From an uncultured Bacteroidota bacterium (GTDB lineage Bacteria; Bacteroidota; Bacteroidia; Bacteroidales; WCHB1-69): 35,013 bases of DNA. Numbering within the stretch: position 1 is the stretch's first letter; each line of letters begins with the position of its first letter. The notes below the pieces were generated by a model. The model saw only the letters and a program-made list of their open reading frames with translations, was not told the origin of the DNA and searched no databases. The stretch spans positions 1 through 35,013 of the forward strand of contig CADADB010000023.1 of the NCBI GenBank assembly GCA_902786595.1, written 5' to 3'. Shown here one piece after another: positions 1,413 to 29,481 of this stretch. Made by a program: the position numbers and the translations under genes.

Positions 1413-1496
1413 TCCTTAACCTTTAACCCTAAACCTTTAACCCTTAACCCTTAACCCTTAATCCTTAATCCTTAACCCTTAACCCATTAACCTTCT
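1413..1496. repeat. Degenerate heptamer array, TTAACCC family
   Basis: About 11 units of TTAACCC/TTAATCC/TTTAACC with period 7. The array reaches and includes the stop codon (TTA at 1487-1489, TAA on the minus strand) of the HsdR_N-like gene. In that gene's sense the unit is GGGTTAA, with a TAA in every unit. The IS right end abuts its outer edge. Confidence 0.9.
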
Positions 1497-1897
1497 AACT
1501 CGCAAATCCTCTCATTCTCAAAATCAATTCGAAACAACTTCCTTTCCACCCCGTTCGTCACGCAGACTATTGGGGCGCGGAGCACGGCGTTGTAGCGGGC
1601 GGCCTGGTCGGCGACCTGCTGCGTGAGCTTCACGTGCGGGGCCTTGCACTCGACCACCATATACGGCTGTAGTTCGTCATCGAAGACCACGAGGTCGTAA
1701 CGCTGCGTCATCCCGTTGACCGTCACCGCGTGCTCGACCGAGAGGTGTGACAACGGGAACCCCTTGACATTCAATAGGTAAAGGATGAAAACCTGTCGCA
1801 CGTGCTCCTCGGGGGTCATCACCACCCATTTCTGCCGCACAGGATCGAAAACCTCTTGTTGCGTGCCATTTTCCCGTATTTTAAGGGTATTTGCCAT
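1487..1897 (-). CDS. Type I restriction HsdR N-terminal-like (HSDR_N_2) protein
   Basis: This 136-residue protein matches the small stand-alone HsdR_N family common in Bacteroidota. It looks like the PD-(D/E)XK endonuclease domain of type I restriction HsdR subunits but without helicase or translocase domains. The probable catalytic motif is RYDLVVFD (Asp), followed about 12 residues later by MVVECKAP (E-x-K); TQQVADQAARYN is the usual helix after the core. No modification or specificity subunit gene is nearby, so a complete restriction system is not indicated and the cellular role is unknown. The start ATG at 1897 gives the family's normal N-terminus (FDPVRQKWVVMTPEEHVRQ). The stop codon lies within the last unit of a heptamer array. 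Confidence 0.85.
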   Translation of the reverse strand: MANTLKIRENGTQQEVFDPVRQKWVVMTPEEHVRQVFILYLLNVKGFPLSHLSVEHAVTVNGMTQRYDLVVFDDELQPYMVVECKAPHVKLTQQVADQAARYNAVLRAPIVCVTNGVERKLFRIDFENERICELEG

Positions 1898-1928
1898 GTT
1901 TTTTTGTTGATCGTTGATGTATTGTATC

Positions 1929-1995
1929 GCCCCTGTCGGGGCTTTAGGGAAAAAGGAACTGCTTCCTGCTACCGAGCTTTTGTCCCTGTCGGGAC
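1929..1995. repeat. REP-like pair of small hairpins
   Basis: Two related palindromes, GCCCC-TGTC-GGGGC (1929-1942) and GTCCC-TGTC-GGGAC (1982-1995), flank a spacer containing GCTACCGAGCTTTTG. The reverse complement of that spacer resembles the element at 3279-3350 (CAAGAGCTCGGTAGC), so both belong to one dispersed family. It lies in the 193-bp gap between the HsdR_N gene and nspC, next to the following array. Confidence 0.65.
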
Positions 1996-2090
1996 CTGTT
2001 GCCTATTGCCTATTGCCTGTTGCCTATTGCCTATTGCCTGTTGCCTATTGCCTATTGCCTATTGCCTGTTGCCTATTGCCTTTTGCCTAA
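1996..2090. repeat. Heptamer array, TTGCCTA/TTGCCTG family
   Basis: Thirteen consecutive 7-bp units directly downstream of the nspC stop codon (TAA at 2091-2093, minus strand). Units differ mainly at the last base. In order they read A A G A A G A A A G A T A, giving a partial 21-bp higher-order period. In the nspC sense the unit is TAGGCAA or CAGGCAA. Confidence 0.95.
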
Positions 2091-3245
2091 TTATCCCAAT
2101 TTCGCCTTGTACGAAGCGTAATCCCCCGGTTGCGCGAGCATTTCGAAGTTGCCGTCCTGGTGGATGACCCCGATGGCGGGATGCGCCACCCCGTTGAAGA
2201 AGGTGGTCTTCACCATCGTGTAATGGATCATGTCGTCGAAGACGATGCGGTCGCCGATCTCCAACGGCTCGGGGAAGGCGAAGTCGCCCATGCCGATGAA
2301 GTCGCCAGCCAGGCAGGAACAGCCGCCCAAGCGATAGACGTGCTTGCTGTTCTCGTCGGGTTCGGTGGCGCCGAGGACCGTCGGTTTGTAGGGCATCTCC
2401 AAGCAGTCGGGCATGTGGCAGGCGAAGGAGACGTTGAGCATCGCGATCTTGATGCCCTTGTTCTCGACGATGTCCTCTACGGTGGAGGTCAGCACGCCGG
2501 TCTGCCAGCCCACGGCCTCGCCCGGCTCGAGAATCACCTCCTCCAGATTCGGATAGCGGCTGCGGAAGTCCTGCAGCAGCCCGATGAGGTGCGGGATGTC
2601 ATAGTCGGCGCGGGTAATGTGGTGCCCGCCGCCCATATTGAACCATTTGCACTGCTTGATGAGGTCGGAGAACTTCTCCTCGGTGGCTTTCAGGCAGCGC
2701 TCGAGGGCGTAGCTGTCGTTCTCGCAGAGCACGTGGAAGTGCAGGCCCTCGATGCCTTCGGGCAGGGTGTCGGGCATGCCGTCGCGCAGGATGCCCAGAC
2801 GCGAGCCCGGCACAGCGGGATTGTAGAGGTCGGTCTCGATTTCCGAATATTCGGGGTTGATGCGCAGTCCGAGCGAGACCTTCTTGGGGAAGGCGGCGGC
2901 CTGTTCGCGGAACCGCTCATACTGTCCCAACGAGTTGAATGTCAAGTGACTGCTGTACATGAGCAGCTGTTCGAAATCGTTGTCGGTATAGACGGGCGCG
3001 TAGGTGTGTGCCTCGCAGCCCATCTCCTCGGCGATGAGCCGCGCCTCGTTCACGGAGCTGGCGGTGGCGCCGCTGAGCCACTCGTTGATGAGCGGGAACG
3101 ACGGCCAAAAGGCGTAGCCCTTCAAGGCGCAGATGATCTTCACGCCGGCCTCTTTCTGCACGAGGTCCAGAAGCTGCAAATTCGCTAACAATGCTTCTTC
3201 CGAGAGGATGTAGCAGGGGGAGGGGAGAGAGGTGTATATGTTCAT
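2091..3245 (-). CDS. nspC: Carboxynorspermidine/carboxyspermidine decarboxylase
   Basis: This cytoplasmic PLP enzyme, 384 residues, catalyses the last step of the alternative polyamine route, decarboxylating carboxy(nor)spermidine to (nor)spermidine. It belongs to the fold III (alanine racemase-like) decarboxylases. The probable PLP lysine is K42 in [10 protein letters not shown]. Other family signatures are [29 protein letters not shown], and the C-terminal [10 protein letters not shown] with the dimer-interface active-site Cys. I chose the ATG at 3245 ([16 protein letters not shown]); the reading frame stays open upstream only through a palindromic repeat element, and its translation there has no similarity to the family. 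The partner carboxynorspermidine synthase is not in the window. The stop codon touches a heptamer array. Confidence 0.92.
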
Positions 3246-3278
3246 AGTTAATAGATAATAGTTAATATTTTTCCTTGA

Positions 3279-3350
3279 GCAGCCCCGCAGGGGCAAGAGC
3301 TCGGTAGCCAGGGTTGAGGTGCGAGGAACGAGCGCCGCAACCCTGGGGGT
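3279..3350. repeat. REP-like palindromic element
   Basis: Contains GCCCC-GCA-GGGGC (3284-3296), CAAGAGCTCGGTAGC, and a hairpin with 9-bp arms CCAGGGTTG (3308-3316) and CAACCCTGG (3338-3346). It is related to the element at 1929-1995 in inverted orientation. It lies between the GldL-like gene and nspC and is translated only by spurious upstream extension of nspC. Confidence 0.7.
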
Positions 3351-3356
3351 CGAACA

Positions 3357-3379
3357 AATTATCAATTACGAATTATTGT
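3357..3379. repeat. Short heptamer array overlapping the GldL-like gene 3' end
   Basis: Three units, AATTATC AATTACG AATTATT, run across the stop codon (TAA at 3366-3368, minus strand) and the last three sense codons. Confidence 0.6.
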
Positions 3380-3578
3380 CCGCGATTTTTCCGATGATGA
3401 AGAACACCATCCAAAAGATGAGGACGCTTCCGCCTGTTATGGTCATGACGCTGCCGCCGGGCCATTTGCATAACATAAATACTATGCCTAACCCGAAGAC
3501 AATCAATGCATAAATCAGCAGCTTTTTCATAAACGCCTTATATCCGGCGGAATGGATCAAATCTTTAATACTGGCCAT
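3366..3578 (-). CDS. Small two-helix membrane protein, GldL N-terminal-like
   Basis: A 70-residue protein with two predicted membrane helices (about residues 19-37 and 45-64) linked by LCKWPGGSVMTI. The spacing and the K/H-WPG turn resemble the N-terminal transmembrane hairpin of GldL/PorL, the T9SS motor protein (consensus ...FKxxHWPGA...), but the cytoplasmic domain is missing. It may therefore be a stand-alone GldL_N-like protein. Its role is unknown. The start ATG at 3578 follows a -7 box at 3597-3605. The last residues (NNS-stop) are encoded inside an AATTATC-type heptamer array. nspC lies downstream on the same strand. Similarity is judged by eye on a short sequence. Confidence 0.7.
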   Translation of the reverse strand: MASIKDLIHSAGYKAFMKKLLIYALIVFGLGIVFMLCKWPGGSVMTITGGSVLIFWMVFFIIGKIADNNS

Positions 3579-3596
3579 AATGATGTTTTTGAAAGC

Positions 3597-3605
3597 GCAA
3601 AATTA
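3597..3605 (-). promoter_or_regulatory. Bacteroidota -7 box for the GldL-like gene
   Basis: The minus strand reads TAATTTTGC, matching TAnnTTTGC, 19 bp upstream of the start codon. No clear TTG -33 element is visible. Confidence 0.5.
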
Positions 3606-3663
3606 CAAAAAATGTGGTATATCTCCGCGTAGCTTTTCTCCGCGTATCTCGCGTATCTCACGG

Positions 3664-3767
3664 ATATATTCTACATTCAGCATTCGTCATTCAGCATTAA
3701 AAAGGGGAACCCTCTCGAGCTCCCCTGTTATTTATTCAGCATTCAGCATTCATAATTCAGCATTAAA
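3664..3767. repeat. Heptamer array, ATTCAGC family, split by a terminator
   Basis: CATTCAG/CATTCGT/CATTCAT units occur at 3731-3767, beginning 2 bp after the aminotransferase stop codon, and again at 3674-3698 beyond the terminator. In the gene's sense the unit is ATGCTGA, with a TGA in each unit. Confidence 0.85.
3699..3726 (-). terminator. Rho-independent terminator of the aminotransferase gene
   Basis: On the minus strand AGGGGA ... TCCCCT encloses a 16-nt loop containing CTCGAG and is followed by TTTTT. It lies 41 bp after the stop codon, between two blocks of the same heptamer array. Confidence 0.75.
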
Positions 3768-5078
3768 TCAGTGGTTCTCCTTGAACAGCTTCAGCCGCTC
3801 TTCCAAAACCGGGAACTGGCTGCGCGGGGTCAGGGAAACGCAGGCGCGGAGGCCTTCGCTGCGGTCGCTGCCGCAGGTGCTCAGCGAGATGGCGCTCACA
3901 CCGTAGTACAGGAACTCGTGCAGGAGTTCTTCGCTGCTCATGCCGGGATAGGCCACGGTGAAGTAGAAACCGTCGGCAAGGGGCTTGTCGCCGTCCTTGT
4001 CATAGACAATCTCGAAGCCGTTGTCCAGGAACATCTTCTTCATGATGGCGGCCTTTTCGCCGTACTCCTTCACGTCTTCGATGTAGTTGTAGGTGCCGTC
4101 GTTGCAGCCCTTGAGGATGGCGGCCATGGCGTACTGGGCAGAGTGGGAGACACCGGAGCTGATGGCATAGACCGTACCGTAGATGATGGCGCGGCCCAGC
4201 TTCTTCATCTTGAAATAGGGCTCCAGATCGTCGAACTCTCTGTTGTAGAGCTTCTTGGACATGATCATCAGGGCGATACGCTCACCGGCGTAGCTGAAGG
4301 CCTTGGAACCGGAAATCAGCAATGCGTAGTTGTCGGTGTATTTGCCGACGCTCGGCTGGTAGGGCGGGATGCCCGGAGCGGAGATGTTCTGGCGGAAGTC
4401 CATGCCGAAATAGGCGAGGTCTTCGAACACGAACACATCGTACTTGTTGGCCATGTCGCCGATGATTTGCAGTTCCTCTTCGGTGAAGCAGATCCACGAC
4501 GGGTTGTTGGGGTTGGAGTACATGATGGTGTGGATGTTACCCTTCTCGAGGTAGCTTTCCAGTTTGGCTCTCAGCTTGGCGCCGCGGTGCTCATAGACGT
4601 CGAAAGTCTCGTATTTGAGACCCATGACGCGGTGCTGTTGCTTCTGCACGGGGAAACCGGGGTCGATGAACAGGGTGGTGTCGCGCTCTTTGCGGCAGCG
4701 CACGAAGGTCATGAAACCGGCCATGCCGCCCATCATGGAACCCACTGTCGGGATGCAGTTCTCGGGTTCGACTTCAAGGTCGATGAAGTTCTTGACGAAG
4801 CGCGCAGCTTCCTGTTTCAGGGCTGGAATGCCCTCGATGTCAGGGTAGATGGCGGCGACGCCCTTCTTCAGGGCTTCGATCTGCGCCTCCACGCCCACGG
4901 AGCACGGCGGTAGTCCGGGAATGCCCATCTCCATGCGCACGAACTCCTTGCCGGATGCCTGCTCGATCTCGTTGATCAGACGTTTCACCTCACGGATAGA
5001 GGCCTTGCCCACGGAAGAAATTCCGCTTTCTGCAACTTTCTTGTCCACAATTTCTGCGGGAATCGGTGTGTTTTTCAT
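3768..5078 (-). CDS. PLP-dependent aminotransferase, class I/II
   Basis: This 436-residue fold-type I aminotransferase would act in the cytoplasm on an amino acid/2-oxoacid pair; its substrate cannot be read from the sequence. Visible family residues are the Asn loop (YSNPNNPS, 187-194), the Asp that contacts the PLP pyridine nitrogen (FEDLAYFGMD, D220), the Schiff-base lysine K259 in ISGSKAFSYAGER, and a C-terminal substrate-binding Arg (EGLRACVSLTP). Residues 50-60 (MEMGIPGLPP) replace the usual G(M)PD segment. The frame is open to 5195, but a -7 promoter box at 5117-5125 lies between that start and the ATG at 5078, so 5078 is the real start. It is followed by a heptamer array and a terminator, and appears monocistronic. 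Confidence 0.9.
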   Translation of the reverse strand: MKNTPIPAEIVDKKVAESGISSVGKASIREVKRLINEIEQASGKEFVRMEMGIPGLPPCSVGVEAQIEALKKGVAAIYPDIEGIPALKQEAARFVKNFIDLEVEPENCIPTVGSMMGGMAGFMTFVRCRKERDTTLFIDPGFPVQKQQHRVMGLKYETFDVYEHRGAKLRAKLESYLEKGNIHTIMYSNPNNPSWICFTEEELQIIGDMANKYDVFVFEDLAYFGMDFRQNISAPGIPPYQPSVGKYTDNYALLISGSKAFSYAGERIALMIMSKKLYNREFDDLEPYFKMKKLGRAIIYGTVYAISSGVSHSAQYAMAAILKGCNDGTYNYIEDVKEYGEKAAIMKKMFLDNGFEIVYDKDGDKPLADGFYFTVAYPGMSSEELLHEFLYYGVSAISLSTCGSDRSEGLRACVSLTPRSQFPVLEERLKLFKENH

Positions 5079-5116
5079 ACTGATATATTGATAGTTATAA
5101 TTCTGATGTTTGGACG

Positions 5117-5125
5117 GCAAAGATA
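5117..5125 (-). promoter_or_regulatory. -7 box for the aminotransferase gene
   Basis: The minus strand reads TATCTTTGC, an exact match to the Bacteroidota -7 consensus, 38 bp before the ATG at 5078. It decides the start codon against the longer upstream reading. Confidence 0.75.
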
Positions 5126-5167
5126 CACATTTTATGGATATATGTGTATGATTATATTTTTGGATAT

Positions 5168-5207
5168 GATTTAAGACGTAAGACTTAAGTATCACGTCTC
5201 AAATCTA
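5168..5207. repeat. Mirrored heptamer array, GACGTAA family
   Basis: Units GATTTAA GACGTAA GACTTAA GTATCAC GTCTCAA run up to and over the lptD stop codon (TAG at 5205-5207, minus strand). The two ends (5168-5179 and 5194-5205) are complementary with one mismatch, so the transcript could form a 12-bp hairpin right after the gene. Confidence 0.75.
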
Positions 5208-7820
5208 CAGATTGTTCGTGAAGTCTTGATGCAGGTTCAGCTTCAGCACGTCTTTCAAGGTGGAGGATTTCACGTTGATGGTGAACTGCCAGCCCTTGCG
5301 GTAACCGAACGGAATCCAGTTGAAGCTCATCTCCCAGCAGTGCATGTCGCGGTAGAAGTCCAACGATGTGTATGACAGTGACTTCTGGACGAAGTCGTAG
5401 CCCGTGGTGAAGCCGATTCTCCACTTTTTGGTGACTTGAACGTCGCCAGCGACACCTAACGTATGCACCATGTTGAACTTGTAGGGTTTCAGATCCTTGC
5501 CCACAAAGATGGGACGGTAATAGTCGAGGTTGTCGTTGATGCCGTAAGTGAACGAGTAGTTGAAAGTCAGTGACCACGGCAGCCGGTTGCGCTGGCGCTC
5601 CTGATCCTTCGACTTGAATGTGTTGTGGTCGATGCGGTAGTTGAGGGAGACACTGTACGAGCCGGAGGAAAAACGCAGGAGCCGGTGGTTGGCTTTCCAT
5701 TCGGTGATGTTCACGCGGCGGCCTTGCTCGTTGATGCTGTAGGGGTCGAAAATGAAACTGTAGGTCAGATACAGTTGCTTGAATAGGGTGCTGCGGCCGG
5801 ACATGGAGAACACCGACCATTTCAAGGAGTCAGCAGCGAAATCGTAGTACATGGAGATGTTGAAGTTGTCAATGAGCGGCACTTTTTTCACTCCCGTGAT
5901 GGTGTCTTTCCGGGAACGGACCTTGATTTCCAGGTTGTTGCCGAAAGAGAGCTGGGCGCGGGCCTGCATACGGTTAGCACCGCCTCCGAAGATGGCATTG
6001 TCGTAGTAGTTGTATTCAATCAGGTCGCCGGTCATCGGATTGACGTAGGTGGCCGTGTGACGTCCGTTCAGCATCGGCTGGAAATTAAAGCTCAGTGTCG
6101 GGGTGATAATATGGCGGATGGCATTCAGCCCGCCCTTCTTGAAGAGGTACATCACGTAGATTTTCGTGGTCAGGTTCGAGGAGATCATCAGGTCGTGCAC
6201 GGCGCCGAACTTGCGGTTGAAGTCCATCTGCAGCATCGGGACGGTTTCAGCCGCCGCGCTGTCCCACGTCATGTGGCGGGTGTAGTGCTGCAGATACCAT
6301 TTCTCCGTCAATGTGATGGAGGTGTTCCAGTTGATGGTCTTGGCAATCTTAATGGGGATGGTGATGGGCACGGTGTGCATGATGCCGGTCTCGAAATGGT
6401 TCCAAGTGACGGGCTTGAGGAATAAAGAGTCGAGCGTGTTGACCTGCCCGATAAGTTGCGATGACCATTTCATGGAGATGTTGTCGTACCATTTCAGTTT
6501 CCCGGCTTTGTCTTTCTTCCGGAAAGGGTAAAACTGGACGACGGACATGTTGATGTTGGGGAGTTTCAAGTTGACGGTGTGGTTTCCGGTGTTTTGTGAG
6601 TAGGAGACGGCGGCATCGAAGAAGAAAATGTCGGCGGCCGAAGTAGATAAGTTGACGGTGGAGGTGAACTGGTTGGAGAGATAGTCGTTCGCAGGGGTCA
6701 TGTTGTAGCGGGCGTAGTTGGCGCTCTGCACATCGATATGGGCGTTGAAACGTGTCCTGGGATGCGATTTGACATCCTGCTTGTGGTCCCAATAAATTTT
6801 GTAGTTGTTTGTTTTCTTGAAGTTTGCGGTGTCGATGCGGATGCCCGTAAGGGTGCGGGCAAAGGCTAGCTCGACGGTGCCGCTGCACATGTAGCGGAAG
6901 ACGTAGTTCGATTTGGCCTTGATGGCCCAGCTGCCGCGCGTGTATATGTCGGCGGATAACAACAGGTCGATGTTGTCGTTGATGGCGAAATAGAAACCGA
7001 GGTCTTTCAGATAAAAGCCCATGGATCCGGACTGTCCGAAAGAGGGCATCACCAAGCCGGATTTGTGGCGGGTGTCCAGCGGGAAGAAGGCGAAAGGCAG
7101 GGCCAACGGGGTGGGCACGTTCGTGAAGCTCAGATAGGCAGGCCCGATCAAGATCTTGTCGTGCTGGATGACTTTCGCTTTCGAGAAAGTGATCTCGTAA
7201 TGGGGGTCGCCGAGCTCGCAGGTGGTGTATTTTCCCCGTTTGATGTATGCGACATTGTTCCCGATCTTCTTGACCTGCTCTCCATGGATGAACCCGTCGT
7301 CCTGGGTGGTGATCACATTGGTGATCTTTCCCTTCTGGGTGTTGAAGTTGTACATGATCTCCCTGGCGTTGTAGTGCGCTTCCGCCTGGGAAAAGACGGG
7401 GAAACCGTGCATGTTCCCGTTGGAGTCGGCCACCCCGCAGGCATACAGCTCGTTGTGAATGAAGTCGATTTCGATGTAGTCGGCGCGGAGTTCCATGTCT
7501 TCGTATTGCACCATGGCATCGCCGAACAGGTATGTGTAGCGGTTTTGCAGATCGTTCACCACCGAGTCGCGGGCACTGTATTTGACGACCGAGGTGATGG
7601 CGTTTTGGGAGATGATTTTAGAGGATCGGATGGGAATAGATGCAGAATCCGCGTATGCGGCGTTGGGAATGCCGACGATGGTGGTGTCCGTTCTGGCACG
7701 GGCAGGCCGCCGTTGTTTTGTCTCCTGGGGGAAAACTTGAAAATATAATACACTGAATATGAATACCATAAGAAGCTTATGGAAATATGAAAAATCCAGT
7801 GTGTATATTTTTTTAATCAA
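5205..7820 (-). CDS. lptD: LPS-assembly protein LptD (Bacteroidota type)
   Basis: This ~871-residue outer-membrane protein would insert lipopolysaccharide into the outer leaflet as the beta-barrel partner of LptE. After a signal segment (LLMVFIFSVLYFQVFPQ) residues ~80-230 form the periplasmic OstA/LptA-like beta-jellyroll (YLFGDAMVQYEDMELRADYI, YNFNTQKGKI, FIHGEQVKK). The rest is a long beta-barrel with alternating aromatic strands and an aromatic-poor end DFTNNL. LPLDTRHKSGLVMPSFG-like wording at ~250-270 (FFPLDTRHKSGLVMPSFG) is characteristic. The start is uncertain: TTG at 7820 supplies a basic n-region (IKK), whereas the first ATG at 7769 would leave the signal peptide without one. It is divergent from the amidase gene, sharing the promoter region 7821-7895. 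Confidence 0.88.
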   Translation of the reverse strand: MIKKIYTLDFSYFHKLLMVFIFSVLYFQVFPQETKQRRPARARTDTTIVGIPNAAYADSASIPIRSSKIISQNAITSVVKYSARDSVVNDLQNRYTYLFGDAMVQYEDMELRADYIEIDFIHNELYACGVADSNGNMHGFPVFSQAEAHYNAREIMYNFNTQKGKITNVITTQDDGFIHGEQVKKIGNNVAYIKRGKYTTCELGDPHYEITFSKAKVIQHDKILIGPAYLSFTNVPTPLALPFAFFPLDTRHKSGLVMPSFGQSGSMGFYLKDLGFYFAINDNIDLLLSADIYTRGSWAIKAKSNYVFRYMCSGTVELAFARTLTGIRIDTANFKKTNNYKIYWDHKQDVKSHPRTRFNAHIDVQSANYARYNMTPANDYLSNQFTSTVNLSTSAADIFFFDAAVSYSQNTGNHTVNLKLPNINMSVVQFYPFRKKDKAGKLKWYDNISMKWSSQLIGQVNTLDSLFLKPVTWNHFETGIMHTVPITIPIKIAKTINWNTSITLTEKWYLQHYTRHMTWDSAAAETVPMLQMDFNRKFGAVHDLMISSNLTTKIYVMYLFKKGGLNAIRHIITPTLSFNFQPMLNGRHTATYVNPMTGDLIEYNYYDNAIFGGGANRMQARAQLSFGNNLEIKVRSRKDTITGVKKVPLIDNFNISMYYDFAADSLKWSVFSMSGRSTLFKQLYLTYSFIFDPYSINEQGRRVNITEWKANHRLLRFSSGSYSVSLNYRIDHNTFKSKDQERQRNRLPWSLTFNYSFTYGINDNLDYYRPIFVGKDLKPYKFNMVHTLGVAGDVQVTKKWRIGFTTGYDFVQKSLSYTSLDFYRDMHCWEMSFNWIPFGYRKGWQFTINVKSSTLKDVLKLNLHQDFTNNL

Positions 7821-7846
7821 AGGGAAAAACCTTTAGTCAATAATTA

Positions 7847-10789: not shown

Positions 10790-10818
10790 CGATGAGGCGA
10801 TGAAACGATGAGGCGATG
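10787..10818. repeat. Octamer array CGATGAGG/CGATGAAA between two genes
   Basis: Four 8-bp units run directly from the DUF3127 stop codon (TGA) to the ATG of the NlpC/P60 gene, which is taken from the last unit (GCGATGAA). Each unit contains TGA in the sense strand. Confidence 0.85.
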
Positions 10819-11601
10819 AATTCGGGTATATGTCATTTGACGGTGATACCGATGCGGGCGGAGCCGTCGTACTGTTCCGAGATGGTGAGCCAGTTGCTCT
10901 ATGGCGAGACTTACCGTGTGTTGGAAATGACCGATGAATGGGTTAGGGTAGAGACTCACCATGACAGCTATTCGGGCTGGATTCAACGGAAACAGTATTT
11001 CGGGGTCTCGGATGAGATTTTCGACAACTACTTGAAAGCCGACAAGTTGCGGCTTGCTTTCCCCTTTTTGCCAACGGGCGTGAAATCGCCGAATGCGCTG
11101 ACCATGGGCGCTCTGATGCCCACGAATCCGGAGGATGCTCCTTTTCGGGAGCGTTTCTCGGCTCCGAATGCGGAGAATTGGTGGCCTGCGGACGGCGTGC
11201 CTGACATTTCCCGTGTACAGCGTATGGAACTGCTCCGGAAATCGGCATTCTCACTTCTTGGTGCCCCGTATCTTTGGGGTGGCCGCACGCCGTTCGGCAT
11301 CGACTGCTCCGGTTTTGTCCAGTTATTGTATTCTTTGGTCGGCGTGCAGCTGCCCCGCGACGCCTCCCAGCAGGTGCTCTGTGGTGAGCCGCTCGACTTC
11401 GTTCATGAAGCCCGTCTTGGTGATCTGGCCTTTTTCCACAACGAGGAAGGGAACATTGTCCATGTCGGCATGATGCTCGGTGACGGGGAAATCATCCATT
11501 CCAGCGGCCGGGTCCGTGTTGACCGTATTGACGAGACCGGAATCTTTAACGAGGAAGTGCAGCGCTATACGCACCAGTTGCGGGTGATCGTGCGGGTGTG
11601 A
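10816..11601 (+). CDS. NlpC/P60 (C40) peptidoglycan hydrolase with SH3 domains
   Basis: This 261-residue protein would cleave the peptide stem of peptidoglycan. The N-terminal ~120 residues look like SH3b cell-wall-binding domains (MVSQLLYGETYRVLEMTDEWVRVE, YSGWIQRKQYFGVSD). Residues ~135-261 form the NlpC/P60 papain-like domain with Cys164 (FGIDCSGFVQ), His216 (NIVHVGMML) and His228 (EIIHSSG) as the probable triad. No signal peptide is visible, as is seen for several Bacteroidota homologues of this YkfC/dipeptidyl-peptidase VI type, which act in the cytoplasm on murein peptides; that is a plausible but unproven role. The start ATG is supplied by the end of the octamer array, 26 bp after the preceding stop codon. 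Its own stop is again followed by an array. Confidence 0.88.
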   Translation: MNSGICHLTVIPMRAEPSYCSEMVSQLLYGETYRVLEMTDEWVRVETHHDSYSGWIQRKQYFGVSDEIFDNYLKADKLRLAFPFLPTGVKSPNALTMGALMPTNPEDAPFRERFSAPNAENWWPADGVPDISRVQRMELLRKSAFSLLGAPYLWGGRTPFGIDCSGFVQLLYSLVGVQLPRDASQQVLCGEPLDFVHEARLGDLAFFHNEEGNIVHVGMMLGDGEIIHSSGRVRVDRIDETGIFNEEVQRYTHQLRVIVRV

Positions 11602-11634
11602 GGCGATGATGCGATGATGCGATGAATGAATGAT
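11599..11634. repeat. Octamer array CGATGATG after the NlpC/P60 gene
   Basis: TGA of the stop codon is followed by GGCGATGA TGCGATGA TGCGATGA ATGAATGA, continuing the same GCGATGA family as at 10787. Each unit carries TGA in the sense strand. Confidence 0.75.
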
Positions 11635-12712: not shown

Positions 12713-12788
12713 ACGCTTCATCACCTCATCGTGTCGTCGCCTCATCGTGTCGTCGCCTCATCGTGTCATCGCCTCATCGTGTCATCGC
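12713..12788. repeat. Octamer array TCATCGCC/TCATCGTG
   Basis: About nine 8-bp units (CATCGTGT, CGTCGCCT, CATCGCCT) begin about 8-10 bp after the mltG stop codon. The family is CGATGAGG in reverse-complement orientation, so unlike the other arrays the mltG sense strand has no stop triplet in the unit. Confidence 0.85.
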
Positions 12789-13698: not shown

Positions 13699-13742
13699 TA
13701 AGTCAAATATCTTACGTCAAACGTCTCACGTCCTACGTCTTA
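13699..13742. repeat. Heptamer array, TACGTCT/TACGTCA family
   Basis: Six degenerate 7-bp units end at and include the kce stop codon (TAA, 13740-13742, minus strand). In the kce sense they read GACGTAG, GACGTGA, GACGTTT, GACGTAA, most with a stop triplet. The same family occurs after lptD and groES. Confidence 0.8.
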
Positions 13743-14606: not shown

Positions 14607-14700
14607 GTTTTGGCTATTGGCTTTTGGCTTTTAGCTATTAGCTTTTGGCCAACAGCCAACAGCCAACAGCCAACAGCCAATAGCTAATAGCTAATAGCTA
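14607..14700. repeat. Mirrored heptamer array between kal and kce
   Basis: Six units of TTTGGCT/TTTAGCT/ATTAGCT are followed by about seven of AACAGCC/AATAGCT, the reverse-complement family. The two halves can pair into a hairpin with arms of roughly 40 nt. The outer end includes the kal stop codon (CTA 14698-14700, TAG on minus). Confidence 0.9.
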
Positions 14701-17082: not shown

Positions 17083-17137
17083 CCGTCTATTCATCGCCTC
17101 ATCGCCTCATCGTCTCATCGCCTCATCGTCTCATCGT
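17083..17137. repeat. Octamer array CGATGAGN overlapping the wecB 3' end
   Basis: About seven units CATCGCCT/CATCGTCT on plus. On minus they read CGATGAGA/CGATGAGG, beginning inside the last four codons of wecB (encoding TMRR), giving its TGA stop and running on for five further units. Confidence 0.9.
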
Positions 17138-18202
17138 CTCCGCGATGACCTCTGCAGCATGACCGTCACCATAGAGCGTGATGGGAAACACTGGTGGCAC
17201 ATCCAACAGATTCTGAACGGTTTGCAGGATATTGGCGGGTTCCGTCCCGACCACGTGGTTGTAGCCGCAGCCCACCAGTTCCGTCCATTCGGTTTCGTTG
17301 CGGAGGGTGATGCAGTATCTACGCATGTAGTACGCCTCTTTCTGCAGTCCACCGCTATCGGTCATCACTAAAGTGCAGTGATTCAGAAGGTAAAGCATCT
17401 CCAAATAGCCGACAGGGTCGATGAATTGGATTGGGGAACGGTCAGTGGGGTAGCCGATGGTTTCCAAGCTCTTGCGTGTGTGTGGGTGCAGCGGGCATAC
17501 GACGGGAATGACATTGCAGGTCTGCTCAAGTGCATAGAGCAGTTGTTTAAGCACTTGAGGGTTGTCCACGTTTTCGGCGCGATGGAACGTGCATAGAATG
17601 TTTCGGTCGGGTAGGGTGGCAGCGGGTTTGCGCATGAGCGGGGCAAATTCCCGAGCCGCATCTTTCATCACATCGCCGCTCATCACGACCTGTGCGCCGT
17701 TGGCTAACCGCCCTTCGTTTCGAAGCTGATTCACCGCCGTTTCCGAGGGACAGAACAGCAGGTCACTGATGCGGTCGGTGAGGATGCGGTTGATCTCCTC
17801 CGGCATGTCTTCGTTGTAGGAACGCAGTCCCGCCTCCACGTGCGCCACGCGGAGGTGCAGCTTCTTGGCGGCCAGTGCGCCCGCGAGGGTTGAGTCCGTG
17901 TCGCCATAGACCAGCACCCAATCTGGCTTTTCTTGCAACAGAACCTCTTCGATTTTCTCCATCATGCGACCCGTAAGCGCTCCGTGCGGAAGCCCGTGTA
18001 TGTCAAAGTGATACGATGGTTTAGGGAGCTGCATCTCTTCAAAAAAGAGCTGCGACATGTTTGGGTCGAAATGCTGGCCGGTGTGCACGATGATTTCCTG
18101 AATATCAGGATATTGAGACAATGCACGGGATACCACAGCGGCTTTGATGAACTGCGGTCTCGCTCCGAGGATGGTGATTATTTTGAGGGTCTGATTATTC
18201 AA
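17123..18202 (-). CDS. wecB: UDP-N-acetylglucosamine 2-epimerase (non-hydrolysing)
   Basis: A 359-residue cytoplasmic enzyme that interconverts UDP-GlcNAc and UDP-ManNAc for surface polysaccharide synthesis. It has the WecB/MnaA GT-B fold signatures: TILGARPQFIKAA at the N-terminus, HTGQHFD, VYGDTDSTLAGALAA with the catalytic-region Asp, HVEAGLRSYNEDMPEEINR with the Glu, TFHRAENVD with the His, and SGGLQKEAYYM. No ATG exists near the N-terminus; the start appears to be TTG at 18202, just downstream of a -7 box at 18222-18230, with a stop codon in frame shortly upstream. The C-terminal TMRR and stop codon come from an octamer repeat array. No other polysaccharide genes adjoin it. Confidence 0.93.
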   Translation of the reverse strand: MNNQTLKIITILGARPQFIKAAVVSRALSQYPDIQEIIVHTGQHFDPNMSQLFFEEMQLPKPSYHFDIHGLPHGALTGRMMEKIEEVLLQEKPDWVLVYGDTDSTLAGALAAKKLHLRVAHVEAGLRSYNEDMPEEINRILTDRISDLLFCPSETAVNQLRNEGRLANGAQVVMSGDVMKDAAREFAPLMRKPAATLPDRNILCTFHRAENVDNPQVLKQLLYALEQTCNVIPVVCPLHPHTRKSLETIGYPTDRSPIQFIDPVGYLEMLYLLNHCTLVMTDSGGLQKEAYYMRRYCITLRNETEWTELVGCGYNHVVGTEPANILQTVQNLLDVPPVFPITLYGDGHAAEVIAETMRR

Positions 18203-18242: not shown

Positions 18243-18291
18243 ATTATCGTTTCATCGTTTTCATCGTCTCATCGCTTCATCGTCTCATCGT
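18243..18291. repeat. Octamer array overlapping the PNGase F-like gene 3' end
   Basis: Units (CATCGTTT, CATCGTCT, CATCGCTT) on plus read as CGATGAGA/CGATGAAG on minus. They encode the last four residues TMRR and the TGA stop of the upstream gene, and end with TAA near 18248. Confidence 0.85.
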
Positions 18292-19974: not shown

Positions 19975-19978
19975 GTGG

Positions 19979-20055
19979 TTTAAGGGTTAAGGGTTAAGGT
20001 TTAAGGTTTAAGGTTTAAGGGTTAAGTCTAAGTTTAAGTTTTAAGTTTAAGTTTG
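19979..20055. repeat. Heptamer array GGGTTAA/GGTTTAA
   Basis: Six 7-bp units are followed by about five 6-7-bp units (GTCTAA, GTTTAA, GTTTTAA). It lies 37 bp after the FISUMP stop codon and directly upstream of the PNGase F-like ATG. In the FISUMP sense the unit is CCTTAAA, again with TAA. It is the complement family of the array at 1413. Confidence 0.85.
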
Positions 20056-21481: not shown

Positions 21482-21515
21482 AATACCCTTAACCCTTAAC
21501 CTTTAACCCTTAAAC
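21482..21515. repeat. Heptamer array TTAACCC beyond the tsf terminator
   Basis: Five units (AATACCC TTAACCC TTAACCT TTAACCC TTAAACC). In the tsf sense the unit is GGGTTAA; here the array follows the terminator rather than the stop codon. Confidence 0.8.
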
Positions 21516-23428: not shown

Positions 23429-23532
23429 GTTTTTTTTTTATTTGTTTACGTTCTTAAAAGCAACAGTGGAGTAGTCCTCATGCGGGAATCTTCACCGTTT
23501 CGATACTAAACACTGTCCAAACAAGATTCCGA

Positions 23533-23919: not shown

Positions 23920-23920
23920 G

Positions 23921-24376
23921 TTACTTAATATCCTTAATGTTAATTACTTTGGGTTGTTGCGCTTCATGCGGATGGTTCGGGCCCACATAGACGTGGAGGT
24001 TGCGGAACAGCTGGGCACCGAGTCTGTTCTTCGGGAGCATGCCCTTGATGGCGTGTTCCAGAATGCGTCTCGGATCCTTGCGCATCACTTCCTTCGGAGT
24101 GGCAAAGCGCTGTCCGCCGGGATACGTGGTGTGGTGGACATACTGCTTGTCCGTCCACTTGTGGCCCGTGAAACGCACCTTCTCCGCGTTGATGATGATC
24201 ACATTGTCGCCGCAATCGAAATGAGGCGTGTAATAGGGCTTGTTCTTGCCTTTCAGTATGCGCGCCACCTGTGTAGCAAGGCGGCCCACAACCATCTCCT
24301 GGGCGTCAACGACTACCCATTCTTTCTTGACGATTTTCTCATTCGCCGAAATTGTTTTGTAACTTACTGCATCCAT
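23921..24376 (-). CDS. rplM: 50S ribosomal protein L13
   Basis: A 151-residue large-subunit protein, first gene of the operon. Signatures are KEWVVVDAQEMVVGRLATQ, VIIINAEKVRFTGHKWTDK, YVHHTTYPGG, MLPKNRLGAQLFRNLHVYVG and HPHEAQQPKVI. A near-perfect promoter lies 111 bp upstream, leaving a leader of ~105 nt that could carry ribosomal-protein feedback control; I see no defined structure to support that. Confidence 0.98.
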   Translation of the reverse strand: MDAVSYKTISANEKIVKKEWVVVDAQEMVVGRLATQVARILKGKNKPYYTPHFDCGDNVIIINAEKVRFTGHKWTDKQYVHHTTYPGGQRFATPKEVMRKDPRRILEHAIKGMLPKNRLGAQLFRNLHVYVGPNHPHEAQQPKVINIKDIK

Positions 24377-24486
24377 TTTTTCAGTTTTGTCATTTTTTTG
24401 TGAGAGACATCTTCACCCATATCTCTCTGATTTCTAATTTTTTTCCTTTGCTAACTTAAGGATAATAATCGAGAATTTTTAAGCGC

Positions 24487-24517
24487 GCAAAAATAGACTT
24501 TTTTTGGATATTGTCAA
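24487..24517 (-). promoter_or_regulatory. Promoter of the rplM-rpsI-rpsB-tsf operon
   Basis: The minus strand reads TTG (24515-24517), exactly 19 bp, then TATTTTTGC (24487-24495), the ideal Bacteroidota -33/-7 arrangement. It sits 25 bp after the end of the DUF819 gene. Confidence 0.88.
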
Positions 24518-24541
24518 GAGGTGTTGAAAAATATTTTTTCA

Positions 24542-25708
24542 CTAGCCGCCAACCGCCGTCAGCAGCATGAAGATACCGATCCCCAGATAGTTGCCGACGG
24601 CATATCCCAGCAGCCCGATGGCAATGCCGGGGAGAATCACCGACTTGTCGTGCAGCACGGCGGCCACCATCGGCACGAACGGCGGCGAGTTGATGAGGGA
24701 AATGGAGGCCGCAAGCGTCAGGTCGCCATCGATGCGGAAAATCCTGGCGAAAAGGAATTGCAGCACCAAGGACCCGAACACTGCAAACGCTATATAATAT
24801 AATATGTATAGGTGCTTGGAAAATTCAAGGTCGTGGACGTTCACCATCGTGGCGATGGCCAAACAGAAGACATAGACGAAGTAGAGCCCCACATTGAACG
24901 TGCCCTCCAGCCGCTTGACGGGCTTCCAGAAGGAGAGCAGCAAGGCGAGGGTGGTGAGGGTGATGATGATGACCGCCGTGTTGTTCTCGATGGGCAGCAG
25001 CAGGGAAAAACCGTAGGCGGCAGCCACGAGCACAGCTGCCACCCCGATGCCGGTAGCGCGGTTTCCCGCCTTCTGCCAGAACCTTTTCGTGTCCGTTGTG
25101 GATTCTGCGTTGCCAACGGTCTCTTCGGGAAGAGTGGGGGCTTCCGACTTCCTCTTGAAGAGCCGGCGCACGATCGGCCTTCCGAACGCGACGATGAATA
25201 TGAGGTAGATGCTGGTGACCACAAGGTCGTAGCCGGAAACCAGCAGGAAGAGGTGCTGTGGCAAATCCACGGCTTTGGCCACGGGAGCGAAATTGGGGAT
25301 GCCGCCGGTGTATATGCCCGTCATGGCAGCACTCACCCGCGCGAAATCAGTGACTCCCAAGCCCGCCTCCACCGCTTGCTCGCGGAACAGGAAAAAACCT
25401 GCCACAGTGACAGCCAGGACGCTGAACAGTCCTGTCAGGAAAACCTTGAGCACCGTCCCGGTGGACCAGTTGCGGAAATCACAGCCCAACAGCATCAACG
25501 GGATGGAGAGCAGCACCGCCACGTTGGAAACACTGGTGCACACGCTATTGGCAGTCTCCCCGACAATGCCGACGTTCCCCACCACCAGCCCGATGACATA
25601 GAGGATGACCATCGGCGAGATTTTCTCGATGATGGGCCACTTCCTTGCCGCAATCATCACCAGCAGCGGGATGACGATGAGGTACAATATGACGATAGTC
25701 GGAATCAT
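24542..25708 (-). CDS. DUF819 family integral membrane protein
   Basis: A 388-residue inner-membrane protein with about ten hydrophobic helices ([51 protein letters not shown] and so on). Conserved DUF819 features are the polar [16 protein letters not shown] loop and C-terminal [19 protein letters not shown] hydrophilic loop between helices ([16 protein letters not shown]...) lies near the middle. The family is related to sodium-coupled transporters, but the substrate is unknown. The start was set at ATG 25708 because a -7 box at 25734-25742 lies just upstream; the longer frame from 25753 would run through it. It is divergent from groES. No terminator or array follows the gene. Confidence 0.88.
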
Positions 25709-25733
25709 TCGGGTTGGCAGTTTTTTTCGGGCG

Positions 25734-25742
25734 GCAAAGGTA
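25734..25742 (-). promoter_or_regulatory. -7 box for the DUF819 gene
   Basis: The minus strand reads TACCTTTGC, matching TAnnTTTGC, 25 bp before the ATG at 25708. Confidence 0.65.
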
Positions 25743-25800
25743 CGATTTTTCACGATGAGTCCTTTTGTGACATTTTGGCAGAATCATTCTCGCGAAAACT

Positions 25801-25817
25801 TGGCACGGAATTTGCAT
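25801..25817 (+). promoter_or_regulatory. Putative sigma-54 (RpoN) promoter of groES-groEL
   Basis: TGGCACG (25801-25807), four bases, TTGCAT (25812-25817) match the sigma-54 -24/-12 consensus TGGCACG-N4-TTGCW at every position; the GG and GC doublets are separated by exactly 10 bp. The expected start site is ~57-45 bp before the groES ATG. No CIRCE inverted repeat is seen. An alternative, weak -7 reading is GGAATTTGC, which lacks the TA. Confidence 0.7.
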
Positions 25818-25873
25818 CCCTTCCCGCCGTCAACAAAAAAGACGAAAATTCAAACTTAAAAATAAAAAACAAT

Positions 25874-26149
25874 ATGAAAAACATCAAACCCTTAGCAGAC
25901 AGAGTTTTAGTGAAACCTGCAGAAGCTGAACAGAAAACCGCCGGCGGCATCATCATCCCCGACACCGCCAAGGAAAAACCCCAACAAGGAACCGTCGTGG
26001 CCGTCGGACCCGGCAAAAAGGACGAACCCATGACCGTCAAGGTGAAGGACACCGTGCTCTACGGCAAATACTCCGGCACCGAAATCCAACTCGACGGCGA
26101 GACCTATCTTATCATGAAGGAGAGCGACATTTACGCGATCTGCAAATAA
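25874..26149 (+). CDS. groES: Co-chaperonin GroES
   Basis: A 91-residue co-chaperonin that caps the GroEL ring. Family features are [20 protein letters not shown], the mobile loop [24 protein letters not shown], and [20 protein letters not shown]. The start was set at ATG 25874 ([11 protein letters not shown]); the frame is open far upstream but runs antisense through the DUF819 gene. It is followed by a 172-bp spacer with a repeat array and then groEL. Confidence 0.97.
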
Positions 26150-26275
26150 GACTTAAGACGTTAGACTTAGGACTTTAGACTTAGGACTTTAGACGTAGGA
26201 TGTAAGACCTTTAAGATATCAGGAACGGACAACCCCAAAGTCTCAAGTCTCACGTCTCAAGTCTCAAAACAAGAC
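26148..26275. repeat. Mirrored heptamer array between groES and groEL
   Basis: From the groES stop codon (TAA) run ~9 units GACTTAA/GACGTTA/GACTTAG/GACTTTA; after a short unique stretch come four units AGTCTCA/CGTCTCA, the reverse-complement family. Sense units of the first half contain TAA or TAG. The halves can pair into an imperfect hairpin in the groESL mRNA. Confidence 0.88.
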
Positions 26276-26303
26276 TGAATTAACGAATAAAACAAAAAAG
26301 TAA

Positions 26304-27956
<1,653 letters not shown>

Positions 27957-27958
27957 AG

Positions 27959-28155
27959 CATAATGCTTAATGCATAATTAAGGAGCATCGAGAGAAAGTC
28001 GGTGCTCCTTTTTTTTTCGGTTTGCGGTTTACGATTTGCGGTTTTTGCAGTTTACGATTTGCGCTTAAATCTCAACCATGTAATAATCCCCCCAAAAAGA
28101 AACTATATCGCTCCCCACCTCATTATCCATTATCAATTATCAATTATCCATTATG
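27959..28155 (+). repeat. ~200-bp direct repeat, copy 1 (after groEL)
   Basis: Contains a GCATAAT/GCTTAAT heptamer block beginning at the groEL stop codon, a terminator, a GGTTTGC/GGTTTAC heptamer block, a unique stretch (AAATCTCAACCATGTAATAA ... ATCGCTCCCCACCTC) and an ATTATCC/ATTATCA block. Copy 2 lies at 29266-29481 in the same orientation. The unique parts are nearly identical, while the heptamer blocks differ in unit order and number. Confidence 0.9.
27980..28017 (+). terminator. Rho-independent terminator of groESL
   Basis: AAGGAGCA (27980-27987) and TGCTCCTT (28003-28010) pair around a 15-nt loop that contains an inner CGA/TCG, followed by nine T. Confidence 0.92.
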
Positions 28156-28210
28156 TAGAATGGGTAAGGTCAACCCCAATATAAAACATCATTCAAAAAG
28201 GGCTGAAATC

Positions 28211-28335
28211 CCGACCTTTGTTAGGATAGGGTGAGCGGAGCAAGCCCTAGGTCGGATGCCGACGAATGGCCGACGAATAAAATGATGAATGTCCGATGAA
28301 CGGACGATGAATGACGATGTAGCGGTTGATGGTTG
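28211..28335. repeat. REP-like nested hairpin and degenerate array
   Basis: CCGACCT (28211-28217) pairs with AGGTCGG (28249-28255), with an inner AGGG/CCCT stem around GAGCGGAGCAAG. It is followed by degenerate repeats CCGACGAATGG and CGATGAACGGA to 28335. No gene is seen in 28018-28403; the 386 bp consist of repeat copies and arrays. Confidence 0.65.
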
Positions 28336-28343
28336 CAATAACC

Positions 28344-28390
28344 GGCCACGGCAAACAGATGTCTCCCCTTTAGTGGGCAAGGGGGGTAAT
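28344..28390 (+). repeat. GC-rich ~48-bp interspersed core, copy 1
   Basis: GGCCACGGCAAACAGATGTC, then TCCCC...GTGGGCAAGGGGGGTAAT. Related copies lie at 29214-29261 and 34726-34775 in the same orientation; each has GATGA-type repeats on the left and AATGC-type heptamers on the right. Confidence 0.8.
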
Positions 28391-28403
28391 TATGCATTAT
28401 GAA

Positions 28404-28991
28404 TCAAACCGATTCCTGCGTCATGTTTTCGATTTCCTCTTCGCTGAGCCCTGTCGCTTTCGCGATGGTGGAAATGTCTAAACCGCTTGCCAGTAGGTTT
28501 TTGATGAGCTCCCGCTGTCCCTCCGCTCTGCCTTCTTCGCGTCCTTTCTCAATACCCTGCTCAATACCCTGCTCGAAGCCTTGCTCGAGACCTTGTTCGA
28601 TACCCTCTTTCAGGGATATTTCGCGGGCGCAGCGGATGGCGTCCTGCACGTCGGCGTATTCGAGCACGCTTTTTCTGTACGCTTTCTTTTCCATAACGGT
28701 AAGTTTTGAATGCCTGCCGTCCTCGAACAGCCCACGGAACACTTCTTCCTCGCTCTCGCCGAGCAGCTCGCTGGGCAGGAAGGTGATGTCGGTCACGCCC
28801 TCCATCTTGTCGGGCAGGAATGCCCTGAGCAAGGCCAGCAGCCGCTCCGCACCCCTCCGGTCGCTGCAGAACAGCTTCTTGAAGCCGAAGTCGGTGAGCG
28901 GGTTGATGTAAACGGGATCGATTTCCGTTCCCATGGCTTTCGCGGCAGTTGCCGCGTCTTCTCTCGGATGGTTTTCTTTCGTTGACTTCAT
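28404..28991 (-). pseudogene. Rpn/PDDEXK-family protein lacking the nuclease core
   Basis: A 195-residue relative of the Rpn (recombination-promoting nuclease, PD-(D/E)XK family transposase) proteins, normally about 300 residues. The family N-terminus is present (VYINPLTDFGFKKLFCSD ... ITFLPSELLGESEE), as is the C-terminal part (VFRGLFEDGRHSKL, KKAYRKSVLEYADV) with its EQG-repeat helix (EGIEQGLEQGFEQGIEQG). The ~120-140 residues expected between LLGE and the LFE segment, which hold the D...E-x-K catalytic site, are absent, and the frame is kept. A promoter (TTG-N20-TATCTTTGC) precedes it, so it may still be expressed. It is either a decayed gene or a catalytically dead, regulatory form. The family identity is firm; the function is unknown. 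Confidence 0.8.
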
Positions 28992-29018
28992 AATACTTTG
29001 TTTTTTTTATTTTGTCCC

Positions 29019-29050
29019 GCAAAGATACAACGAAAACTCCCTCTTGTCAA
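29019..29050 (-). promoter_or_regulatory. Promoter of the Rpn-like gene
   Basis: The minus strand reads TTG (29048-29050), 20 bp, TATCTTTGC (29019-29027), 28 bp before the ATG. It is a good Bacteroidota promoter. Confidence 0.75.
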
Positions 29051-29213
29051 GGGTTTTGCGAAATTTTTTTTGTTCCTGGATGTCAGTGTGTTGCGGTTTT
29101 GTATTAACAGTTGATTTTGTAATAGTTAAATGTTTTAGAACAATTTTCGCAGGAAATCGGAGGGGGACCGATGAATAGACGATGAAAAGGGGATGAGCTG
29201 ATGAGAGGAAAGC

Positions 29214-29261
29214 CCGGCACGGCAAACAGATGTCTCCACCTTTAGGGGGCCAGGGGGGTAC
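29214..29261 (+). repeat. GC-rich interspersed core, copy 2
   Basis: CCGGCACGGCAAACAGATGT then CTCC...TTTAGGGGGCCAGGGGGGTA. It is preceded by degenerate GATGA repeats (29168-29206) and followed by AATGCATA heptamers. The 487 bp between the Rpn-like gene and the large T9SS gene (28992-29478) contain only the Rpn promoter and repeats; 29051-29160 is AT-rich with nothing recognised. Confidence 0.8.
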
Positions 29262-29265
29262 TAAT

Positions 29266-29481
29266 GCATAATGCTTAATGCATAATTAAGGAGCATCGAG
29301 AGAAAGTCGGTGCTCCTTTTTTTTTCGGTTTGCGATTTACGATTTACGGTTTGCGGTTTACGATTTACGGTTAAATCTCAACCATGTAATAATCCCCTAA
29401 AAAGGGAAACCATATCGCTCCCCACCTCATTATCAATTATCCATTATCAATTATCCATTATCCATTATCCATTATCCATTA
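29266..29481 (+). repeat. ~200-bp direct repeat, copy 2, with terminal heptamer array
   Basis: Same order of blocks as 27959-28155: GCATAAT heptamers, an orphan copy of the groEL terminator (29288-29325), GGTTTGC/GATTTAC heptamers, the unique stretch, and eight ATTATCC/ATTATCA units. The last unit contains the stop codon (TAA at 29479-29481, minus) of the T9SS gene; in that sense the unit is TAATGGA. Confidence 0.9.

Follow-up and report, generated by a model that had tools for sequence, protein, structure and literature searches.

The 35-kb stretch analysed here (35,013 nt of contig CADADB010000023.1, termed C23; 52% G+C), hereafter the window, belongs to the 2.84-Mb genome of an uncultured Bacteroidales bacterium, and one of its proteins has its best named matches in Bacteroidales genomes assembled from yak and reindeer metagenomes (rumen or gut). 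Its genes include nspC, lptD, mltG, kce, kal, wecB, groES, groEL, the rplM-tsf operon, a PNGase F-like gene (Pfam PF09112/PF09113) and a large gene whose product is sorted by the type IX secretion system (T9SS), and many of them end in a short tandem array of period 7 or 8 bp. An earlier note on this DNA had placed such arrays at the stop codons of 16 of the 26 complete protein genes outside insertion sequences (IS). Arrays detected with Tandem Repeats Finder (TRF, score >=30; Table 1) lie within 10 bp of 12 of these 26 stops, namely those of the HsdR_N-like, nspC, aminotransferase, DUF3127, NlpC/P60, kce, kal, wecB, PNGase F-like, groES, groEL and large T9SS-sorted genes. The array claimed for mltG is present 13 bp from the stop, outside the 10-bp limit, and no array lies near the stops of lptD and the Rpn-like gene at this score. 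No gene matched the label "GldL-like"; the only candidate, a 70-aa open reading frame (ORF) at 3366-3578, has no Pfam hit, and its stop lies 99 bp from an array. The rplM-tsf operon is array-free as the note stated (none between tsf, rpsB, rpsI and rplM). Starts are affected as well: 5 of the 27 in the window, counting that of the IS gene, have an array no more than 10 bp away.

The window was selected for its arrays and is therefore a biased sample, supplying 16 of the 113 arrays with periods from 6 to 11 that the first 435 kb of the genome survey yielded. This survey covers 835 kb (29%), made up of the window and 40 coordinate-chosen stretches of 20 kb; genes were called with a home-made ORF scorer, which missed groES, and genome-wide arrays were detected by autocorrelation at each lag. 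At score >=15, intergenic DNA contains 125 arrays of period 7, 18 of period 8, 5 of period 6, one each of periods 9, 10 and 11, and none of periods 2-5; period 12 is represented by 5 arrays and period 18 by 4, and the multiples 14, 16, 21, 24 and 28 follow. The 665 kb of coding sequence hold one period-7 array, none of period 8 or 6, and two of period 12. No period-7 arrays were found in dinucleotide-shuffled gaps (first 435 kb, 20 shuffles). Exact two-copy runs in gaps, a count that includes runs inside longer degenerate arrays, number 215 at period 7 (8.8 expected from mononucleotide shuffles), 68 at period 6 (35.8 expected) and 19 at period 8 (2.2 expected). The sister genome G020 (341 kb, score >=14) has 52 intergenic arrays of period 7, 16 of period 8 and 10 of period 6, with 2, 0 and 1 in coding sequence, respectively. 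Period 7 is enriched over periods 5, 6, 9 and 10, the comparison that the earlier note had named as a check.

Among 185 arrays of period 7 or 8 (score >=14), 175 fall within gaps between two called genes, and the other 10 were dropped. An array is present in 118 of 361 co-directional, 13 of 51 convergent and 10 of 69 divergent gaps of at least 40 bp. Of the 150 arrays in co-directional gaps, 70 are no more than 5 bp from the stop (uniform placement, 21.7 ± 3.8) and 26 no more than 5 bp from the start (22.3 ± 3.7 expected). The same anchoring at stops was found in G020 (31 of 61; uniform null 7.4 ± 2.3), in eight other loci of the genus (18 of 27; 4.7 ± 1.6) and in 14 named Bacteroidales loci, which were drawn from the 26 of 64 loci already known to show a period-7/8 array (17 of 37; 3.5 ± 1.6). 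Arrays within 5 bp of starts number 3 (7.7 expected), 2 (4.8) and 1 (3.5) in these three sets. Stops are favoured genome-wide over starts and over uniform placement, the other check named in the note, and as a preference the stop pattern holds outside the window; starts carry arrays too, including a distinct, mostly four-unit element described below. When arrays were barred from the 30 or 60 bp ahead of starts, the stop expectation became 39.2 ± 4.0 or 62.4 ± 3.8, against the 70 observed. That the pattern is an artefact of assembly or gene calling is hardly credible: the named relatives are metagenome assemblies, as other relatives may be, and our gene caller did overlook groES, but the pattern recurs in many separately assembled genomes and stop positions are independent of start choice.

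The arrays also follow a strand rule, their units being C-poor on the strand that reads away from the gene. Read outward, arrays within 15 bp of a gene have G>C rather than C>G by 109:10 at the stops (12 ties) and 41:6 at the starts (1 tie) of co-directional gaps, by 13:2 at convergent stops (1 tie) and by 3:1 at divergent starts (1 tie), the counts pooling this genome, G020 and the eight other genus loci. The 14 named loci gave 15:3 at co-directional stops, and 0:1 with 2 ties at convergent stops. Spacers of this genome with a single array follow the rule in 45 of 49 cases at stops and 20 of 21 at starts, and its array-free co-directional spacers are without G/C skew. Avoidance of Rho in operons was rejected as an explanation, as convergent stops keep the polarity (13:2, though n is small). 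The 175 arrays use 61 distinct units, and their longest run of G or C is 3 in 22 arrays, 2 in 60 and 1 in 93.

Unit and stop codon are in register in 18 of 77 period-7 stop arrays (4.0 at random phase) and in 9 of 13 period-8 stop arrays (1.6); the corresponding numbers in G020 are 10 of 28 (2.0 expected) and 7 of 8 (1.0 expected). In both genomes together, the last heptamer of the coding sequence agrees with the unit at >=6/7 positions in 23 of 105 arrays (1.2 expected). In-register period-7 arrays are a minority, and therefore many arrays begin beside the stop codon and not from it. A 7-bp step gives a stop triplet in all three frames, so that the arrays might serve as back-up stop codons. 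The sense units of stop-overlapping arrays do contain a stop triplet in 49 of 52 cases (33.9 expected), but this excess is built in by the overlap, and arrays 0-15 bp past the stop carry the triplet in 26 of 38 cases (23.2 expected from shuffled units). With the overlap removed there is no clear excess; the idea was rejected as close to refuted and very improbable.

Comparison of orthologous spacers revealed that arrays keep their place and their 7/8 period and change their units. In the kal-kce spacer of 20 relatives, an array runs from the kal stop (offset -9 to +2) in 14, lies elsewhere in 4 (one of period 9) and is missing in 2. Eight of the 14 have period 7 and six have period 8, with units including TAGCTAT, AAGAATT, TTAAGAC, AGCTTAGA, ATTAAGTT and TGTTTAAT. 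Period 8 stands in place of 7 in L122, L125-L128 and L130, and therefore the ruler can shift by one base. In four close genomes this spacer measures 85, 106, 127 and 127 nt, that is, it differs by whole units (steps of 21 and 42). Four relatives have period-8 arrays at the NlpC/P60 stop or within 3 bp of it, and 7 of 17 cases shared between this genome and G020 have unrelated units by our reading. The proposal that period and place are kept and sequence is not thus stands for the most part, with the reservations that units are C-poor on the outward strand and that some units are common to many sites. Such a combination suggests a length- and place-specific process and not a shared DNA element.

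The presence of arrays is itself shared. In comparisons of co-directional spacers with G020 and two other genomes, arrays are present in both members in 21 cases, in this genome only in 4, in the other only in 9 and in neither in 42 (Fisher test, P-value = 3e-8, which is inflated because some spacers were counted against several genomes). This sharing would be expected of a selected function at 3' ends that needs the period, the place and a C-poor outward strand and no given sequence; an RNA- or DNA-binding platform with a 7-nt step is a candidate. Two further observations are consistent with it: orthologues have different units at the same place and period, and the polarity (109:10 for co-directional stops, 13:2 for convergent ones) is missing from array-free co-directional spacers. 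We nevertheless consider such a function unlikely, if worth keeping in view: only 118 of the 361 co-directional gaps that measure at least 40 bp contain an array, the 76 co-directional comparisons with three relatives include 13 in which just one member has an array, arrays are rare in the stretches covered from other families, and RNA folding of 66 stop-array spacers gave no extra stability (mean z of -0.86, with -1.58 for 100 controls). A general hairpin function was rejected, because inverted partners are a minority (8 of 68) and stop-array spacers fold worse than controls.

At one operon site, long array-bearing spacers stand against short orthologues. Of 36 genomes, 34 had a match for rplW-rplB and 30 loci were examined; the spacer is array-bearing and 68-163 nt long in 12 genomes, this one among them, and 4-12 nt long in 18, of which 8 belong to the genus and 10 to the order. 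G024 yielded 10 period-7 arrays in 200 kb, and G014 yielded 2 period-7 and 3 period-8 arrays in 183 kb; in 17 stretches (251 kb) from other families we found 2 of period 7, none of period 8 and 4 of period 10 (3 of 20 stretches, under 2 kb, were dropped). In the 12 genomes with the long rplW-rplB spacer, mutS scores over the family cut-off in all and mutL in 10; mutL is under it only in G003 and G010 (89% and 63% complete). Gene loss is therefore not the cause, and lost mismatch repair was rejected as an explanation, both genes being present in this genome.

Some spacers hold two arrays that are mutually inverted, as between groES and groEL (26147-26267, an AGACTTA-type array followed by AAGTCTC). 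In the first 435 kb and 20 relatives' loci, 15 of 58 pairs in two-array spacers are inverted at <=1 mismatch (3.1 expected) and 4 are direct (2.7 expected). In several species the long rplW-rplB spacer combines a G-rich arm next to the stop with a C-rich one next to the start; relatives have 4-12 nt in this spacer. The two arms vary together from species to species in the kal-kce spacer (20 spacers of >=40 nt; mean within-species score 12.0 vs. 6.9, P-value = 5e-5) and in the rplW-rplB spacer (12 spacers; 13.0 vs. 9.0, P-value = 0.0014); both P-values are optimistic, as related species are not independent. Several single species show no excess. The arrays might thus descend from intergenic inserts with inverted heptamer arms, similar to miniature inverted-repeat transposable elements or to REPINs (paired repetitive extragenic palindromic, REP, sequences). 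Single arrays would then be one-armed remnants, and the outward polarity would come for free. This origin appears doubtful to us, since a strong complementary partner is present for only 8 of 68 stop arrays (2.0 expected), a cruder half-against-half test gave about equal numbers of strong inverted and strong direct matches (10 and 11 of 99), and unit diversity is too great for one element. Moreover, no array of period 6, 7 or 8 lies within 800 bp on either side of any of the three Y1-transposase genes found in this genome, and Y1 genes occur in array-rich and array-poor genomes alike. A Y1 transposase or a reverse transcriptase as driver was rejected, as their counts do not clearly track array abundance; genome size and completeness confound this comparison.

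We tentatively favour the explanation that a period-7 duplication anchored at stop codons writes the arrays in this Bacteroidales clade, which we regard as quite possible though short of probable, and which does not account for the size of the step itself. A slippage-like tandem duplication with an unusually sharp 7-bp step, and 8 bp as the second, would write and rewrite intergenic arrays, mostly from the stop codon outward. In its favour stand the sharp period, the anchoring and register at stops, the matches of the terminal coding heptamer, the contrast of long and short rplW-rplB spacers, the whole-unit length steps at kal-kce and the unit swaps. An array could widen a tight spacer, grow or shrink by whole units, or give way at the same site to an array with another unit, and coding sequence would stay nearly array-free because a 7-bp step breaks the frame. 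Anchoring would reflect a DNA-level event where translation ends, for example at exposed single strands where naked nascent RNA may form an R-loop on the G-rich, C-poor strand. Most single arrays are probably tolerated and not needed, a lack of function that we infer.

Several points weigh against stop-anchored duplication. Neither the outward G>C polarity nor the choice of the stop over mid-spacer would follow from plain slippage, and slippage alone does not give the arm covariation seen in two spacers. The R-loop idea leaves the C-rich arrays ahead of starts unexplained. The null with a 60-bp exclusion ahead of starts covers most of the stop excess, and start avoidance could be part of the stop preference; start avoidance is in turn weakened because 26 of the 150 arrays do fall within 5 bp of a start. 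The stop codon is out of register with the unit in most period-7 stop arrays. Orthologous spacers share array presence far above chance, which also fits a retained function. Nine array spacers of this genome, compared with array-free orthologues of clade B (11 rows), are longer in 6 cases and shorter in 3. Finally, the presence of repair genes carries no information on repair activity. Inverted inserts or selection may add to the duplication process.

In addition to the general arrays, we detected a start-side element, (ATAACCN)x4, with flanks GCTTC... and ...ATT and a nearly fixed copy number, mostly four units. Among 31 elements with at least three units, 16 have their ATT end no more than 15 bp from a called start, 7 (reversed) have it equally close to a stop, and in 8 the distance is greater; the GCTTC end never comes within 15 bp of a gene (0 of 31). 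The free base in 28 four-unit runs is C in 33 positions, A in 29, T in 21 and G in 1; neighbouring free bases are alike in 14 of 56 cases (18.8 expected), no likeness above chance, and therefore the element does not look like a product of recent slippage. It is an element separate from the general arrays, and constrained. Overlapping hits of a strict three-unit ATAACCN pattern number 181 in this genome, and those of the reversed pattern 4. The strict pattern is present in 21 of the 60 genomes searched, this genome included; the element is common in part of the genus. There is none in the window. Sites include L096:9030, L106:10722, L110:4191, L113:4178 and L148:16811, and by eye the element lies directly ahead of housekeeping-looking starts (rplB, leuS) and, reversed, past some stops. 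A regulon was rejected, as 19 downstream proteins appear, by eye, to be mixed and largely housekeeping.

An excess of period 7 in bacterial genomes is an old, little-studied oddity. Heptamers near stops with the same strand rule are a kind of repeat already known from Xanthomonas and Nostoc (Rehm et al., 2015, PMC4692102). Those repeats (GGGNATC and GGGGA(C/T)T) are intergenic, have period 7, lie by preference within 50 bp of stops on the sense strand and within 50 bp ahead of starts on the antisense strand, are under-represented between divergent genes and vary in length among relatives; the length of DNA contacting polymerase is cited there as a proposed cause of the period-7 excess (PMC4692102). 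The present arrays share the period, the noncoding location (125 intergenic, 1 coding) and the G-rich strand, sense past stops and antisense ahead of starts (109:10 and 41:6). They differ in having 61 units among 175 arrays, with a G/C run of three in only 22, where Xanthomonas and Nostoc have one G-rich unit type able to form G-quadruplexes (PMC4692102), and in that orthologous spacers can carry different units. TAACTGA direct repeats of Beggiatoaceae, Cyanobacteria and some Bacteroidetes (MacGregor, 2015, PMC4679880) form short sets mostly just upstream of starts, at genes without a common function, ribosomal-protein genes included. The (ATAACCN)x4 element resembles them in its period of 7 and in ending a few nt ahead of starts (16 of 31 within 15 bp), but has another unit and also occurs reversed past stops; moreover, our arrays overall favour stops, whereas TAACTGA sets are mostly start-side (PMC4679880). 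REP and REPIN elements with their RAYT transposases are likewise intergenic, often past genes, in inverted pairs and in within-genome families (PMC3733652). REPs are short palindromes with a GTAG-type tag (PMC3733652), whereas the heptamer arrays are direct repeats and are not at Y1 genes (three of three, 800 bp). Ribosome termination structures also lie directly past stop codons across bacteria (Chemla et al., 2020, PMC7518266), but they are defined by stable RNA structure, and stop-array spacers are without excess stability. A 2025 survey of short tandem repeats (PMC12699852) names Bacteroidota as a high-density exception among otherwise repeat-depleted bacteria; in the excerpts available, neither this survey nor another (PMC4060949) singled out heptamers or gene ends. 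Among the matches listed in the open-licence literature, none described the swapping of units in place or the present Bacteroidales arrays; many units per genome, in-place swapping and covarying arms look new.

A wider reading is that a general and so far undescribed seven-base-ruler process acts at gene ends, with Xanthomonas, Nostoc, Beggiatoaceae and Bacteroidales as four outcomes of one mechanism. Tied to translation start and stop sites, it would write C-poor arrays outward on a single strand at any place where the sequence may change freely, and the arrays would differ in sequence between unrelated bacteria. We think this rather unlikely. Because the present clade has many arrays, sister genomes, short array-free sites and unit swaps, mutational bias, selection and mobility are separable in it. 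The arrays would also bear on the lengthening of spacers inside core operons such as S10, and on how Bacteroidota start and stop genes there.

Table 1. Tandem arrays of the window (TRF score >=30), with their place relative to genes.
Unit	Period (bp)	Place	Position	Strand	TRF score
GGGTTAA-type	7	overlaps HsdR_N-like stop (distance 0)	1414..1492	-	114
GGCAATA-type	7	2 bp past nspC stop	1995..2089	-	155
TATTAAC-type	7	overlaps nspC start	3240..3267	-	42
CTGAATG-type	7	spacer beyond aminotransferase gene	3674..3698	-	36
GCTGAAT-type	7	4 bp past aminotransferase stop	3734..3764	-	48
CGATGAGR	8	directly past DUF3127 stop	10790..10819	+	46
TGATGCGA	8	starts at NlpC/P60 stop	11599..11625	+	
TCATCGTG/TCATCGCC	8/16	13 bp past mltG stop	12718..12788	+	121
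	7	weak, at kce stop	13710..13742	-	38
AGCCAAT		complementary second arm, kal array to kce start (inverted score 21.5)	14608..14649	-	56
GCTATTA/GGCTGTT		from kal stop; first arm of inverted pair	14648..14698	-	
GGCGATGA	8	across wecB stop	17091..17140	-	79
ACGATGAG	8	across PNGase F-like stop	18246..18291	-	62
CCCTTAA-type		start-side, ends 3-5 bp ahead of PNGase F-like start	19977..20051	-	94
TTAAGGG		66 bp past tsf stop	21485..21513	-	51
AGACTTA-type		starts at groES stop	26147..26194	+	54
AAGTCTC		ahead of groEL, inverted vs. groES array	26238..26267	+	53
AAACAAT		weak, directly ahead of groEL start	26290..26318	+	30
TAATGCA		at groEL stop	27954..27978	+	36
TTTGCGG		groEL/Rpn-like spacer	28014..28044	+	41
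CATTATC		groEL/Rpn-like spacer	28121..28154	+	54
TAATGCA		spacer of Rpn-like and large T9SS-sorted genes	29262..29286	.	43
TTTACGA		spacer beyond large T9SS-sorted gene	29329..29369	-	54
TAATGGA		from stop of large T9SS-sorted gene (Por_Secre_tail)	29428..29481	-	94
GAATGCT		upstream of large T9SS-sorted gene	34576..34609	.	54
CGATGAGA	8		34622..34714	.	130
AATGCAG			34773..34818	.	64

A separate family of repeats, which we label REP-like in keeping with the REP source cited above, exists in this genome beside the heptamer arrays. This GTAG-tagged repeat, CCCGACAGGG...AGCTCGGTAG, occurs in spacers of the window at 1969-1993 (-) and 3283-3307 (+), and copies at L293:4960-4977 and 5944-5961 flank a Y1-transposase (RAYT-like) gene. 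The spacers at 27954-28154 and 29262-29481 share by eye one long composite, consisting of a TAATGCA array, a terminator-like hairpin, a TTTGCGG/TTTACGA array and a CATTATC array, and are seemingly a duplicated intergenic block. Another intergenic motif, CACGGCA..CAGATGTCTCC...GGGGGGTA, was seen by eye three times in the window, at about 28345, 29217 and 34728.

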